Below are positions 8,045-19,418 of a DNA stretch of 48,297 nucleotides, one piece after another. A program made the translations under genes and the position numbers. Under the pieces are notes generated by a model. It did not search any database. It had not been told where the DNA came from and saw only the letters and a program-made list of their open reading frames with translations. Positions within the stretch are counted from its first letter, which is position 1. Every line of letters starts with the position of its first letter. Origin of the DNA: a virus; IMG/VR virus record IMGVR_UViG_3300037119_006157, positions 1 through 48,297 of that record; one strand, written 5' to 3'.

Positions 8045-8762
8045 GCCGACGCGCGAGCGCATCGCCGAGAGGGTGAGGCGGCTCCTCGCTCTCTCGAAGT
8101 CGCCCAACGAGCACGAGGCTGCGGCGGCGGCTCAGAAGGCGCAGGAACTGCTCCTCAAGCACGACCTGAGCATGGCCGAGGTGGACGTGGCCGAGGCCCC
8201 CGAGGTGGTGGAGGGGAGCACCAAGCTGGCCAACGGGGCGGGCTGGCGCATCACCCTGCTCTTCCGCGTGGCCGAGGCCTACGGCTGCGAGATGACCTAC
8301 AGCACCGGCACCGGGGGGAGGTGCCAGTTGTACGGGCGCGCCCACGCCATCGAGGTCGTGCTCCACGTCAACGAGTACCTCGCCCGCACCATTGAGCGCC
8401 TCGCCGAGGAGGCAGCCCGCAACATCTCCTTCTGGGACACGGGCGAGTCCCGCAAGTGGCGGACGCGCTTCCGCTACGGGGCCGTCCGCACGGTCACCAC
8501 CCGCCTCAAGGAGAGCCGCCGCACGCTCGCGCAGGAGAGCGCCCAGACGCAGGCCCTCGTCCTCGTCAACGACAAGGCCGTGAAGGAGTTCTTCCAGCGC
8601 CTCTACCCGCCCGGCACGCTGGGGCGCTCCAGCCTCGGCTCAGACATGGGTGGGCACGGCTACCGGGCAGGCCGCGAGGCAGGCCACGGCATCGCCCTCA
8701 ACGACGCAGTGCGGGGGCCTTCGGGCTCCCGTGCCCCACAGCTTTCTGGAGGAAGCAGATGA
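8037..8762 (+). CDS. DUF2786 family protein, 241 aa
   Basis: The N-terminal 45 residues (RIAERVRRLLALSKS, then NEHEAAAAAQKAQELL) match the DUF2786 helical repeat found in many phage and bacterial proteins. The following DUF7168-like part is mixed alpha/beta with a conserved-looking LYGR turn and a basic helix. The biochemical role of the family is not established. GTG 8037 is chosen because it overlaps the previous stop and because the residues ahead of it look non-coding. The last 35 residues are Gly/Ser-rich. Confidence 0.8.
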   Translation: MTEPTRERIAERVRRLLALSKSPNEHEAAAAAQKAQELLLKHDLSMAEVDVAEAPEVVEGSTKLANGAGWRITLLFRVAEAYGCEMTYSTGTGGRCQLYGRAHAIEVVLHVNEYLARTIERLAEEAARNISFWDTGESRKWRTRFRYGAVRTVTTRLKESRRTLAQESAQTQALVLVNDKAVKEFFQRLYPPGTLGRSSLGSDMGGHGYRAGREAGHGIALNDAVRGPSGSRAPQLSGGSR

Positions 8763-9457
8763 CTGTCCGCAGCTACGAGAGCCTCTCCCCCTTCCCCGAC
8801 GACCTCAGCGACGCCCAGCTTCAGGCCCTCATCGACTACGCCCGCGACCGCGAGTCGCGGGAGGAGGAGCAGGCCATGGAGGTGGCCAGCGCGCTGGCCG
8901 ACAAGCTCCGCCGCCCGGGCGAGACAGAGGAGGAGCACGCCGAGCGCGTGCCCTCGCACATCTACCGCCACGGCATCACCTCCAGCGACGTGTCGTGGGC
9001 GGCCAAGTCCATCCGCGAGCGCGAGGCCGAGGCCAAGAAGTGGGAGAACTTTGGCTCTGTCTTCTGGCACGTGCTGAACAACCGCCAGCACGCCGCCGAG
9101 GCCGAGGCCTTCGAGTCCCAGAGGGCCCTCGTCGAGGTGGGTGACCCGGTGGACGCCAACGAGGCCTATGCCGCGCTGGGCTGCTCGCCCCCCGACCAGA
9201 CGCGCTGGTCGGACGGCCCCACGCGCTACGAGTACCGCTCGGTCTCCCTCGACGAGCAGTTCATCGGCTACGTGCGGCGCAAGCCCAAGCAGTCCTTCTG
9301 GAGCTACACCCGGCTGGGCGACACCTCCTCGTGGAACGAGCAGGTCGAGCCACGCTGGAACAACGGCGGCTATGGCCAGCGCTACCGCCACCAGCAGGAG
9401 GCTGCGGATGGCCTCGTGAAGGCCGTCCTCAAGGCGCGTCAGGCGGTGTCGGCATGA
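8759..9457 (+). CDS. Hypothetical protein, 232 aa
   Basis: Unrecognised. It starts at ATG 8759 (ATGA overlap) behind GGAGGAAG. The N-terminal third is strongly helical and acidic (YARDRESREEEQAMEVA), the middle is helical with KSIREREAEAKKWENF, and the C-terminus is aromatic and Gly-rich. It has no catalytic signature. One of the larger early proteins and worth a structure prediction. Confidence 0.7.
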   Translation: MTVRSYESLSPFPDDLSDAQLQALIDYARDRESREEEQAMEVASALADKLRRPGETEEEHAERVPSHIYRHGITSSDVSWAAKSIREREAEAKKWENFGSVFWHVLNNRQHAAEAEAFESQRALVEVGDPVDANEAYAALGCSPPDQTRWSDGPTRYEYRSVSLDEQFIGYVRRKPKQSFWSYTRLGDTSSWNEQVEPRWNNGGYGQRYRHQQEAADGLVKAVLKARQAVSA

Positions 9458-9681
9458 CGACTCACTCTCGCCTCGTGGGGCACGTCGCCGACGTCGTGGA
9501 CTACGGCAGCATCGTCACCGTTTACGTGATGGTGGCCGACGCCCACGGGCAGGTGGAGCCCATCCACTTCGACCATCGCATGTTCCAGCACTTCGCCGAG
9601 GCCGAGGGCTACGCCCTCATCGGGCGTGGCATCGAGCGCGACGTGGTGGACGGCGTCGAGACCGTCAGCCTGCTGGGCTGA
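9454..9681 (+). CDS. Hypothetical protein, 75 aa
   Basis: Unrecognised small acidic beta-rich protein (VADVVDYGSIVTVYVMVADA). It is coupled to the preceding gene by ATGA. An 81-base gap with GC-rich inverted sequences (CCCCCGGGGG near 9692) separates it from the next gene. Confidence 0.66.
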   Translation: MTTHSRLVGHVADVVDYGSIVTVYVMVADAHGQVEPIHFDHRMFQHFAEAEGYALIGRGIERDVVDGVETVSLLG

Positions 9682-12734: not shown

Positions 12735-12916
12735 CCCGCCAGAGAGCCCCCATCACCTCCGGGTGGTGGGGGCTTTTTTGGTTTCAGGGACTGGCCCCAG
12801 CGGTGCTCTCCGCAGTAGCGCTTGCCCCGGGGCCCGCCCTGCGTCCAGATGCGCTCGCCACAGGACGGCTCCGCGCAGTCCGCGAGGTAGACCGAGGGCG
12901 AGCCATCTGGCTTCAC
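12731..12916 (-). CDS. Small zinc-binding protein, 61 aa, last gene of minus replication operon
   Basis: GTG 12916 overlaps the previous stop (GTGA). It has C17-x4-C22 (CAEPSC) and a later C-x2-H (CGEH), a zinc ribbon plan, plus a Pro/Gly-rich C-terminus (KPKKPPPPGGDGG) that is encoded by the plus-strand terminator itself. The tail may therefore be dictated by the terminator rather than selected as protein. Confidence 0.65.
   Translation of the reverse strand: MKPDGSPSVYLADCAEPSCGERIWTQGGPRGKRYCGEHRWGQSLKPKKPPPPGGDGGSLAG
12745..12779 (+). terminator. Rho-independent terminator of the plus-strand operon
   Basis: A 13-bp stem (AGCCCCCATCACC / GGTGGTGGGGGCT, one G-T pair) with a TCCG tetraloop and six T residues (12774-12779). 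Textbook form. It lies inside the 3' coding end of the convergent minus-strand gene. Confidence 0.92.
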
Positions 12917-13044
12917 AGGCGCATCCCCAGCCAGATGGCGGCGAGGATGAGAAGGGCGGTCATGGTGAGGCTGGCCACAACCGAGAGGACGGCCAGCACC
13001 AGCGCAACCCATCCGATCGCGTCGTCGAAGCGCTGGTTGTCCAC
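12913..13044 (-). CDS. Small membrane protein, 43 aa
   Basis: Read from GTG 13044 to TGA 12913, overlapping the next start (GTGA). After a polar start (DNQRFDDA) residues 10-42 are almost wholly hydrophobic (ALVLAVLSVVASL, then ALLILAAIWLG), one long or two short membrane helices. No strong Shine-Dalgarno. It lies in frame downstream of the TAG at 13057. It could be a holin or an early membrane peptide. Confidence 0.6.
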   Translation of the reverse strand: MDNQRFDDAIGWVALVLAVLSVVASLTMTALLILAAIWLGMRL

Positions 13045-13056
13045 GTCACGGCGATT

Positions 13057-14631: not shown

Positions 14632-14911
14632 CGTCTTCTGCCCCTTCAGGCCCGTTCTCGCGAGCGATGAAAGCCCGAGGGGCCATTCCCCGCCCCCACA
14701 CAGTGCCGTGAGAGCCCTCTTCTCTCGCGAAGAGAAGAGGCTCACCGGCTTTTGTCCTCAGCGCGAGCATCTCGTCTGGCGTAAGGCAGCGGCGGGTGTA
14801 GGGATCGTGCTCGCCCACGCGGTGGAGGTCGAAGGCGTTAACCCCCCCGAAGGTCTCGTGACAGGACGGGCAGTGCGTCTTGTAGATGGGCTTGCCGCAG
14901 GGCTCAGTCAT
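14624..14911 (-). CDS. Zinc-finger protein, 95 aa
   Basis: ATG 14911 in ATGA overlap with the initiator gene. CPSC near residues 14-17, then FDLHRVGEH and later RRCLTPDEM: a C2H2-like zinc finger (C-x2-C ... H-x4-H) found in many siphovirus and podovirus early genes next to rusA. Probably nucleic-acid binding. The C-terminal 45 residues are variable and acidic at the end. Confidence 0.75.
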   Translation of the reverse strand: MTEPCGKPIYKTHCPSCHETFGGVNAFDLHRVGEHDPYTRRCLTPDEMLALRTKAGEPLLFAREEGSHGTVWGRGMAPRAFIARENGPEGAEDDE

Positions 14912-15672
14912 TCGAACAACTCGTCCTTCTTCTGGGAGGCGAGGTAGGCCTGCCGCTCGGCGAAGGACGGCGGCTTGAGGCCGTTGGGCTTGGGGGCACC
15001 GAAGCGCTCCTCCATGTCGGGGCGGTCGGCGTCCCGGCCCTCGCTCTTCCAGCGCTGGACGATCGCCTTGGTGTAGCTCCACTTCTTCACGCCGTTCTCG
15101 CCCGTCTCCCTGATGGCGTCGGCCAGCCAGTCCTCGGGGAAGCCCTCCTCAAGCTCGTGCGCCAGCCACTCGGTGAAGAGGGCTGTGACGGTCGAGGTGG
15201 TCGCCTTGTGCCAGACATCCACAAGGCGAGCTATAGCCGCAGAATCACCAGCAGCAGCTAGCTCTGGTTCATATGGGCTCTCGTTAAGACGGGCTTTGGT
15301 TTGTGCCGCATCCTTGCGGTCACCTGTCACCGCACCGTTGCCCCCACAGGTCACCGCATCCTTGCGGTCACCTTGACTGAAGAACAGGTGGTAGCGGCTG
15401 CTCAGGAGGTCGCCGTCCTCGCTCGTGCGGTGCTCCACCTCGACCGCCGAGATGGCGACTAGCTCCTTGAGAGCGCGGTCAACGGTGTCGAGTGAGCAGT
15501 GCATCTGTTCTGCCAATCGCTTCCGCGCAGGATAGATGCCGTTCGGGCCTTGGTGGCGGATGAGAACGGCCCAGAGCCTGATGGCATTGCTCGACACGTC
15601 GCTATAGAGCACCCACTCGGGCACTCGCGCGTAGTGCTCGATGCCATGGAGAACGACCCCATCCTCGCTCAT
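14908..15672 (-). CDS. DnaD-like replication initiator, 254 aa
   Basis: The N-terminal 95 residues form a winged-helix DNA-binding domain (SSNAIRLWAVLIRHQ, then RKRLAEQMHCSLDTVDRAL). The C-terminal half ends in the DnaD-type signature YTKAIVQRWKSEG. This pairing is typical of phage primosome/initiator proteins that melt an origin and recruit host helicase; helicase recruitment is inference. The linker (about 98-125) is encoded by DNA with 20-bp direct repeats, giving GDRKDA twice, a common place for a phage origin. ATG 15672 overlaps the upstream gene. Confidence 0.82.
   Translation of the reverse strand: MSEDGVVLHGIEHYARVPEWVLYSDVSSNAIRLWAVLIRHQGPNGIYPARKRLAEQMHCSLDTVDRALKELVAISAVEVEHRTSEDGDLLSSRYHLFFSQGDRKDAVTCGGNGAVTGDRKDAAQTKARLNESPYEPELAAAGDSAAIARLVDVWHKATTSTVTALFTEWLAHELEEGFPEDWLADAIRETGENGVKKWSYTKAIVQRWKSEGRDADRPDMEERFGAPKPNGLKPPSFAERQAYLASQKKDELFE
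15306..15373. repeat. Direct repeats inside the initiator gene (candidate origin)
   Basis: A 20-bp sequence, CCGCATCCTTGCGGTCACCT, occurs at 15306-15325 and 15354-15373, 48 bases apart. Between them lie partial copies (TCACCGCA at 15327-15334). Each unit is itself a near palindrome. An A+T-richer stretch flanks them (about 15265-15305). Iterons inside the initiator gene are the lambda-type origin plan. Confidence 0.55.
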
Positions 15673-15941
15673 GACGACTTCTTCTTGAGCGCCACCTTCT
15701 CCATGTGGTGGCTGAGGACTGCGATGTTGGCCCCGTCAGGGTTAGCGATCGCCTGCTGGAGACAGAACTCCACATCCGTGAGATAGGTCAGCGCTTGGCG
15801 CACGACCCCGAGGCCAAGGTGCGGGGAGAGCGCATGAAAGATCGCCACCTCTCGTGGCGATGTCCTGTTGGCGGCGAGAAGCCAGATGGCATCCCAGAAG
15901 GGCTCCGCGCCCGCGACGTAGGTTCCTTGTTCTTCCGACAT
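15669..15941 (-). CDS. Hypothetical protein, 90 aa, ahead of the initiator
   Basis: ATG 15941 lies six bases after AAGGGGG, which is part of a perfect inverted repeat. The protein is largely helical, with PREVAIFHALSPHLG and VVRQALTYLTDVEFCLQQAI, and a Lys-rich end (KKKSS). It might be a helicase-loader-like or regulatory partner of the initiator because they are coupled by ATGA, but no family is recognised. Confidence 0.7.
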   Translation of the reverse strand: MSEEQGTYVAGAEPFWDAIWLLAANRTSPREVAIFHALSPHLGLGVVRQALTYLTDVEFCLQQAIANPDGANIAVLSHHMEKVALKKKSS

Positions 15942-15947
15942 GAAAAT

Positions 15948-16043
15948 GCCCCCTTCGGGTGAGTGAGGTAGTTGTCACGCTATCTCGCCGAAGGGGGCTT
16001 CTAAGTCTGGGGGAAAGCTCACTCACGGGAGCGATAGCGTGAC
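15948..16043 (-). promoter_or_regulatory. Three interleaved perfect inverted repeats upstream of the initiator genes
   Basis: Arms A (GCCCCCTTCGG, 15948-15958) with A' (15988-15998); B (GTGAGTGAG, 15959-15967) with B' (16018-16026); C (GTCACGCTATC, 15974-15984) with C' (16033-16043). The order is A B C A' B' C', so every pair crosses the others. Arm A holds the Shine-Dalgarno of the 90-aa gene, and on the minus strand is followed by ATTTTC. This suggests an RNA switch, attenuator or pseudoknot controlling initiator expression; paired operators are an alternative. Confidence 0.65.
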
Positions 16044-16061
16044 GCGGGCGAGTCTACACCA

Positions 16062-16322
16062 TCACGGCCCCGTCGCCTTGGCGCTCTTACGGAACTCGTC
16101 GGCGTGTTCACAATCGGCGAAGTGGTTCACCCCCTCCTTCGTGTAGGGCGCGAACTTGCCCGACTTGGTCATCTCCAGCCAGAAGATGTCGCGCCCGCAG
16201 GCCCGGCAGACGCCCGGCCTCCCGGCCACCATCAGTAGCTGGCGGATGTTCTTCTCCAGCCACGCCACGCGCTGCTCGGTGAGGCTGGCTTCGCCGGGTT
16301 CAGGCATCGGGGGCTGGGTCAT
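16062..16322 (-). CDS. Zinc-binding hypothetical protein, 86 aa
   Basis: ATG 16322 follows a strong GAGGAGG. A helical N-terminus (LTEQRVAWLEKNIRQLL) leads to CRACG (about 40-44), then FAPYT, H and C (NHFADCEH) near 65-72: a treble-clef-like zinc site seen in many phage early proteins. Function unknown. It precedes the 120-base regulatory gap and overlaps the upstream gene by 23 bases. Confidence 0.72.
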   Translation of the reverse strand: MTQPPMPEPGEASLTEQRVAWLEKNIRQLLMVAGRPGVCRACGRDIFWLEMTKSGKFAPYTKEGVNHFADCEHADEFRKSAKATGP

Positions 16323-16491: not shown

Positions 16492-16769
16492 AGCGCCTGC
16501 ACCCCACCGAGGGTGACCTTCTTCCAGACCGGCACCTCGAAGCCGCCCCCGCCGCGCTCCTTGCCGCTGAGCACGTAGGCCCCGCAGCGCAGGCGCTCGC
16601 CATCGGCGAGGGCGTACTCCTCGACCACCGTGCGGACGACCTTGCGCGCCTTGAGGTAGGCCCGGTAGGCGTCCTGTGCGGCGAGCATGTCCTCGATCGC
16701 CTGCTCGATCTCGGGGCTCTCGATCGTGCGATCCCAGAGACCCCCTTGGTTGTCCTCACGCGGTGGCAC
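16488..16769 (-). CDS. Hypothetical protein, 93 aa
   Basis: GTG 16769 behind GGGAGGTG; shares a base with the TAG of the ATPase gene. Helical centre (QAIEDMLAAQDAYRAYLKARK) and a beta-rich C-terminus with one Cys. Not recognised. Its position after a Sak4-like gene might suggest a recombination accessory, which is a guess. Confidence 0.68.
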   Translation of the reverse strand: MPPREDNQGGLWDRTIESPEIEQAIEDMLAAQDAYRAYLKARKVVRTVVEEYALADGERLRCGAYVLSGKERGGGGFEVPVWKKVTLGGVQAL

Positions 16770-17680
16770 TAGACACCTCCCTTGGTGTTGGCGACCGGCT
16801 CCTCTTCGCGGCGGTCGCGCACCACCCGGAGGAGGGCCTGTAGCTCGTCGCGGGTGAAGGCGCTGAGGTCTTCGCTGCCCGCCGCGTGGTAGACCGTCTC
16901 GGGCAGGATGCCGTCCTCGGCGGCCTTCACCCAGAAGGCGTTGAGGAGTTCGCTGCTGGCCCCCAGCTTGGCGCGGTGGGTGGGCTCGGCCCCCTCGTTC
17001 AGCCAGCCCGCGAGGCGCTGGCCCAGTTCGGCGCTGGGCTTGACGTGGCTCTCGCCCTGAAAGAGCCCCGTCCTGTCCTTGCTGACGACGAGGGTGTTGT
17101 CCTCGACGAGGAGGTCGCCGACAACATCGAACTCATACTCCAACCCCTCGCGCTGCACGGGCTGGAGCCCCAGCTTGGCGACCCTCTTCTTGCCCGAGGA
17201 GTCGGTCTGCTCGGCGAAGGCCATCTTGCTCCGCAGGGTGACGATGACGTGCCCGGGGAAGCTGAGGATCGTGTCCACGAGGCGCGTCTGGATGGGCGTG
17301 GCCTTCGACCACGGCTCAGTCCACTGGTTGCGCGCCGTCGCCTTCACCTTGTCCACGTATTCGAGGATGCCGTCCTTGCCCGCCCACGCGTGGGAGAGCG
17401 AGTCGATGATGAGCACGCCGAAGCCCTCGGCCTCGGCTGCCTCCATGGCGAGCATGTAGTTCGCCGGGGAGAACGAGGTCAGTTCGAGGGTGCTGTAGTC
17501 GAAGCGGTCGGCGTACTTGTTGGCGCTCCCGCGCTCGGTGTCGATGACGGCGATGGGCCCACCGAGTCCGGTGGCGATCGCCAGTGCGCTGTAGGTCTTG
17601 CCCGCACCGGGCGGGCCCACGAGGCAGAGCCTCAGCTTGGCCTTCTCTTTGCTGGCCTTGGCGAAGGTGGGGGTGGTCAC
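16769..17680 (-). CDS. RecA/Sak4-like ATPase (AAA_24 family), 303 aa
   Basis: P-loop NTPase of the phage AAA_24 / Sak4-like recombinase class: Walker A GPPGAGKT at residues 22-29, a DTERGS segment, and Walker B FGVLIIDSLSHAW at about 75-87. These proteins bind single-stranded DNA and promote annealing or strand exchange with a partner SSB. Upstream genes encode a RecB-like nuclease and a zinc-ribbon protein, together a plausible recombination module. GTG 17680 overlaps the previous stop; the region ahead of it is antisense noise. Confidence 0.85.
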   Translation of the reverse strand: MTTPTFAKASKEKAKLRLCLVGPPGAGKTYSALAIATGLGGPIAVIDTERGSANKYADRFDYSTLELTSFSPANYMLAMEAAEAEGFGVLIIDSLSHAWAGKDGILEYVDKVKATARNQWTEPWSKATPIQTRLVDTILSFPGHVIVTLRSKMAFAEQTDSSGKKRVAKLGLQPVQREGLEYEFDVVGDLLVEDNTLVVSKDRTGLFQGESHVKPSAELGQRLAGWLNEGAEPTHRAKLGASSELLNAFWVKAAEDGILPETVYHAAGSEDLSAFTRDELQALLRVVRDRREEEPVANTKGGV

Positions 17681-19301: not shown

Positions 19302-19356
19302 TCTTTCTGGCACGGGAACACGGTCATGGTCTCCTCATCCGGCTCCCGTGAGGCAA

Positions 19357-19397
19357 ACAGAAAGCCCCCGAAGCTCGGAAGCTCGGGGGCTTTCTGT
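19357..19397. terminator. Bidirectional terminator ending the late unit
   Basis: Perfect 15-bp arms (ACAGAAAGCCCCCGA / TCGGGGGCTTTCTGT) around an 11-base loop that adds three inner pairs (GCT/AGC). T-rich on both strands (CTTTCTGTT). It separates the amidase from the replication operon. Confidence 0.88.
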
Positions 19398-19418
19398 TCG
19401 AGCGTGGAGCGCTCGGGG

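Follow-up and report, generated by a model that had tools for sequence, protein, structure and literature searches.

An intergenic region in the genome of a virus carries inverted repeats in a strongly non-random arrangement; they make up an RNA-like control element that covers the ribosome binding site of a phage replication initiator operon. The region lies in a window of 48,297 nucleotides (positions 1 to 48,297 of the IMG/VR virus record IMGVR_UViG_3300037119_006157). The strongest clue to the role of the element, absent from the earlier note on this DNA, is that the last of its six arms on the minus strand carries the Shine-Dalgarno site of a gene encoding a 90-aa protein. The mRNA probably folds here as a three-helix knot of a rare kind or a timed switch, which hides the ribosome site and so limits the production of the protein that starts replication.

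Three interleaved inverted repeats over a ribosome binding site

On the plus strand, arm A (15948-15958, GCCCCCTTCGG) pairs with 15988-15998 over 11 bp, arm B (15959-15967, GTGAGTGAG) with 16018-16026 over 9 bp, and arm C (15974-15984, GTCACGCTATC) with 16033-16043 over 11 bp; all three pairings are perfect. Along the sequence the arms run A B C A' B' C', and each of the three pairs crosses both others. The arms and their order at 15948-16043 thus represent a genus-1 ABCABC arrangement, which consists of three stems with every pair crossing. The earlier note had reported perfect, fully interleaved arms of 11, 9 and 11 bp at these positions, which proved exact on re-inspection, and had placed them just upstream of the 90-aa gene and a DnaD-like initiator gene, in agreement with the gene boundaries (Table 1). 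The gap between the neighbouring gene, which ends at 16062, and the 90-aa gene, which starts at 15941, measures 120 bp, and the element takes up 96 of them. Arms A, B and C are mutually unrelated, with no common 6-mer on either strand, and no arm of at least 9 nt recurs elsewhere in the window, so that the repeated copies of one motif that characterize an iteron array or origin are not found here.

Table 1. Coordinates of the interleaved arms, the surrounding leader region and the genes downstream.
Feature	Position	Strand	Basis or remark
Intergenic leader region, nearly filled by the element	15942..16061	-	Gene bounds; fold z about -2.6 to -3.6
Arm C', first in the RNA, GUCACGCUAUC	16033..16043	-	Perfect 11-bp complement of 15974-15984
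Arm B', GUGAGUGAG	16018..16026	-	Perfect 9-bp complement of 15959-15967
Arm A', GCCCCCUUCGG	15988..15998	-	Perfect 11-bp complement of 15948-15958
Arm C, GAUAGCGUGAC	15974..15984	-	Predicted to form helix C when the transcript ends at 15974-15955
Arm B, CUCACUCAC, abuts arm A	15959..15967	-	Perfect complement of 16018-16026
Arm A, CCGAAGGGGGC, holds the Shine-Dalgarno site AAGGGGG of the 90-aa gene	15948..15958	-	Anti-SD duplex -10.1 kcal/mol
90-aa gene	15669..15941	-	Start codon 6 nt past arm A
DnaD-like/replication initiator gene	14908..15672	-	ATGA overlap with the stop codon of the 90-aa gene; own Shine-Dalgarno site weak (-1.1)

All neighbouring genes are encoded on the minus strand, where the RNA reads GUCACGCUAUC-6-GUGAGUGAG-19-GCCCCCUUCGG-3-GAUAGCGUGAC-6-CUCACUCAC-0-CCGAAGGGGGC-AUUUUC-AUG (C' B' A' C B A; numbers are linker nucleotides). 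Helix A gains four further pairs in this RNA only (AGAA at 15999-16002 with UUUU at 15943-15946), which include one G-U pair and one bulged base and cover the spacer before the AUG. In the plus-strand equivalent, the sequence turns the G-U pair into an A-C mismatch. Because the extension pairs fully only on the minus strand, by virtue of the G-U pair, the minus strand is favoured as the functional RNA.

Among the Shine-Dalgarno sites of the window, that in arm A is one of the stronger, and it is spaced 7 nt from the AUG of the 90-aa gene. The following gene has profile matches to HTH_36 (3.5e-7), phrog_186 (DnaD-like helicase loader; 1.8e-12) and phrog_270 (1.9e-12), and the PHROG labels describe both a DnaD-like helicase loader and a replication initiation protein. 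Because this gene overlaps the 90-aa gene and has almost no Shine-Dalgarno site of its own, its translation most likely requires that of the 90-aa gene, and one element could therefore control both genes. The 90-aa protein itself has no match in Pfam, PHROGs, viral contigs or phages; its AF2 model, of low confidence (pLDDT 69), shows four helices and has no match in the PDB.

The arrangement exceeds chance expectation

The simulations gave figures that are strong but are not formal p-values, because the triple was selected post hoc from many windows: crossing triples in order-2 Markov copies of the window numbered 425 with stems of at least 6 bp, 6.5 with at least 7 bp and 0.115 with at least 8 bp; none with every stem of at least 9 bp occurred in 200 copies; and when helix A was fixed and the other bases were shuffled, two extra stems, all mutually crossing, arose at a frequency of 2e-5 if 8 bp or more were required and in 0 of 250,000 shuffles if 9 bp or more were required. 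The second-best crossing triple of the window has stems of 7, 7 and 7 bp. Real sequence is a better control than simulated copies and was used as well (2.40 Mb, comprising the window and 2.35 Mb from 224 phage and bacterial loci). No other triple in this set combines arms unrelated to one another with stems that all reach 9 bp and a span of at most 110; the runner-up totals 25 bp with a minimum stem of 8.

Other ABCABC triples do exist in the 2.35 Mb, and those inspected were either iteron-like arrays of a single motif in mixed orientation or located within genes; they were rejected as equivalents of the element. Three of the loci contain mostly non-coding, mixed-orientation arrays of the GTTACC, ACCATTGGT and TTTGATA types (L108:4154-4334, L032:12064-12173 and L044:813-990), which are likely iteron or origin regions. 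Their inverted repeats cross because a single motif is repeated in mixed orientation.

Predicted folding of the leader

Nested folding can accommodate one of the helices A, B and C at a time. In the growing transcript, the nested MFE structure first contains helix C, at transcript ends from 15974 to 15955 (-31.8 to -33.1), and once arm A is complete, helix A replaces it (-43 to -49; -49.1 for the full transcript). Folds forced to contain C or B are about 8 kcal/mol worse than that with helix A. In the nested equilibrium ensemble, the Shine-Dalgarno site in helix A has a probability of being unpaired of 0.00, as is expected of a sequestering leader.

A fold that retains all three helices is energetically plausible, because their stacking energies (-27.7, -17.6 and -21.6) sum to -66.9 kcal/mol, whereas the most stable nested structure of these 96 nt reaches -35.4 kcal/mol; the difference leaves about 31 kcal/mol for pseudoknot penalties. 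The topology of such a fold is a three-way junction: linkers of 6, 3 and 0 nt lie between the helices, and stretches of 6 and 19 nt connect the outer ends. In a coarse rigid-helix 3D model, which disregards linker volume and threading, every linker was satisfied and no clashes occurred; the model indicates feasibility only, because most permuted linkers pass as well, and the linker test was rejected as evidence for the fold.

A putative translational control leader

On balance, we favour the interpretation that the element acts in cis as a translational control leader in which helix C can form first, with the Shine-Dalgarno site open, and the RNA closes over the site when helix A is made, either as one hairpin or as a three-helix pseudoknot. 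Located on a minus-strand polycistronic mRNA, such a leader would determine how much of the 90-aa protein is made and, through coupled translation, how much of the DnaD-like initiator. The arms C', B' and A' would be transcribed first. When C follows, the 11 bp of helix C could form while the Shine-Dalgarno site is still unmade or open; after the emergence of B and A, helix A (11 bp, or 15 with the extension) would close over the site and its spacer. Helices B and C may be retained alongside A, since no gap separates arms B and A and every linker is long enough, which would yield a three-helix ABCABC pseudoknot. Initiator output would then depend on whether the fold stays paired or is opened, be it by a ribosome or by the binding of a protein from the phage or its host.

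That the helices truly interlock (11, 9 and 11 perfect bp) and control the initiator operon by locking the ribosome site step by step during transcription is a tentative proposal, possible but not the expected outcome. Such a lock would close only once all three helices had been made in order, and it might be released or stabilized by the 90-aa protein or the initiator protein, which would make the control autogenous.

Alternative explanations

The arms could also form mutually exclusive hairpins that never coexist. Helix C (and B) would then form early and counteract sequestration, helix A would be the final structure that hides the Shine-Dalgarno site, and the leader would act as a kinetic switch or timer that needs no pseudoknot. 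The passage of the nested MFE series from C to A and the poorer energies of folds forced to C or B agree with such hairpins, whereas the summed stacks of the three helices, before penalties, surpass any nested fold, and a two-state switch requires two helices and leaves the 9 perfect pairs of B unexplained. Exclusive hairpins are a serious possibility, although short of probable. A hairpin switch of two or three states is the live alternative to the pseudoknot, and both place the Shine-Dalgarno site under the same arms. An ordinary sequestering hairpin, in which helix A alone matters and B and C are coincidental, is distinctly improbable: in nested folding, helix A by itself would indeed seal the site, but neither the shuffles with helix A fixed nor the 2.4 Mb of real sequence produced anything comparable to the additional stems.

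The repeats might instead act in the DNA, as an operator, an origin or a single-strand initiation site, with the arms serving as protein half-sites or as hairpins in single-stranded DNA. The element adjoins a replication initiator gene, repeats are frequent in phage replication regions, and mixed-orientation iteron-like arrays at other loci also yield ABCABC triples. However, the arms A, B and C show no sequence relationship to one another, unlike iterons, their spacings of 29-50 nt are unlike those of operators, an iteron-like array sits elsewhere, inside the DnaD-like gene, and the exact abutment to the Shine-Dalgarno site would be unexplained, all of which renders a DNA-level element unlikely. 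Binding of a single protein to the arms as half-sites, raised earlier as the observation that would speak against an RNA fold, is unlikely in particular because the three arms have no 6-mer in common.

Another potential role is that of a target for a counter-transcribed antisense RNA from the plus strand; plasmid replication is controlled in this manner, and here both RNAs would form the three helices. A plus-strand RNA would bear the same arms, and there is a precedent in ColIb-P9 repZ, whose translation needs a pseudoknot that an antisense RNA blocks (PMC8383071). The extension of helix A, however, favours the minus strand, and a promoter scan revealed no promoter-like site on the plus strand, which makes an antisense target very unlikely; the scan for consensus promoters found none at the element. 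A plain intrinsic terminator or attenuator at helix A is a weak candidate, because the helix is followed by AUUUUC, with just four U; the terminator scan lists none here, although it covers loops of up to 8 nt and the 29-nt loop of helix A is beyond its range.

Searches for relatives

The putative translational control leader has no homologue in viral contigs, phages or plasmids, in search sets that may omit records very near this genome. Searches of viral contigs with the DnaD-like and AAA-ATPase proteins and with three joined-arm DNA patterns returned no close relative, and the major capsid protein has relatives in these contigs whose full-length identity does not exceed about 28%. The AAA ATPase, encoded at 16769-17677, belongs to phrog_1366 (function unassigned there; Sak4/RecA-like) and is widespread, with 409 phage records. 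Its alignment led to 160 viral and bacterial loci; the relatives of the DnaD-like protein among them are partial, and neither the 90-aa gene nor the leader has a counterpart in any of these loci. Rfam covariance models gave no match at the gathering threshold (the best, suhB, has an E value of 0.16 and is below threshold), and a tRNA scan detected nothing at the element.

Other repeats and hairpins

Three tandem 24-nt iteron-like copies (CCGCATCCTTGCGGTCACCTGTCA; 100/71/83%) are present at 15306-15377 within the DnaD-like gene and are a candidate replication origin inside the initiator gene. A prophage-like locus of Nocardia abscessus (L221) carries mixed-orientation iteron-like repeats (9043-9154) in the middle of its DnaD-like gene (8675-9481), whose product is related to that of the window (43% over 75 aa). 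At 19356-19398, a 16-bp perfect hairpin with a T-rich tail resembles a terminator on the minus strand (fold z -6.7) and separates the tail/endolysin module from the replication module. The region between convergent gene runs at 12735-13056 has an unusually stable fold (z -4.6 on the plus strand) and is probably a terminator region.

Comparison with known systems

Both the ABCABC topology and pseudoknotted translational operators are already known, and the pseudoknot of the E. coli alpha operon is reportedly cited as an example of the former in the topology literature. The ABCABC class, a genus-1 'pseudotrefoil' of subclass 1C, is represented by 51 RNA STRAND sequences with a mean length of 74 nt (PMC3390330). 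Like its members, the element has three helices that all cross one another in arm order; unlike them, in a comparison at class level, it has helices of 9-11 perfect bp located over a phage initiator operon. The earlier note had interpreted the arms as a three-way pseudoknot or the alternative hairpins of a replication switch and had considered the design new; the position and a switch-like element are supported, whereas the topology is the known ABCABC type.

The mRNAs of the E. coli alpha operon (uS4) and rpsO (uS15) carry pseudoknotted translational operators that act by entrapment (PMC10931766). They share with the predicted leader a complex pseudoknot that includes a ribosome binding site and controls the first cistron directly and others by coupling, but the element has no match in Rfam and precedes a phage initiator operon rather than genes of ribosomal proteins. 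The gene 32 mRNA of phages T4, T2 and RB69 contains what a 2010 review considered possibly the sole viral pseudoknot in translational autoregulation (PMC3014915). It too is a leader pseudoknot of a gene for a phage replication protein, as predicted here, but it is a simple pseudoknot of two helices about 67 nt upstream of the start codon, and the ribosome binding site there is A+U-rich, whereas the element has three long helices with the Shine-Dalgarno site within them. In ColIb-P9 repZ, an RNA pseudoknot switches the translation of a replication initiator (PMC8383071), as would be the case here; there, however, the pseudoknot activates and an antisense RNA represses, whereas the fold predicted for the element hides the Shine-Dalgarno site.

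The element may resemble these operators in the way it works, a likeness that we propose as an analogy and not as membership in any of them. If its three helices coexist, the element would be unusual among natural ABCABC pseudoknots in its size and regularity, and it would have a clear job, the control of phage replication initiation. Short and self-contained, it would be a suitable model for the ordered co-transcriptional folding of pseudoknots. Compared with the known systems, what appears to be a new variant is the placement of three long and perfect helices, all crossing, over the initiator operon of a phage.
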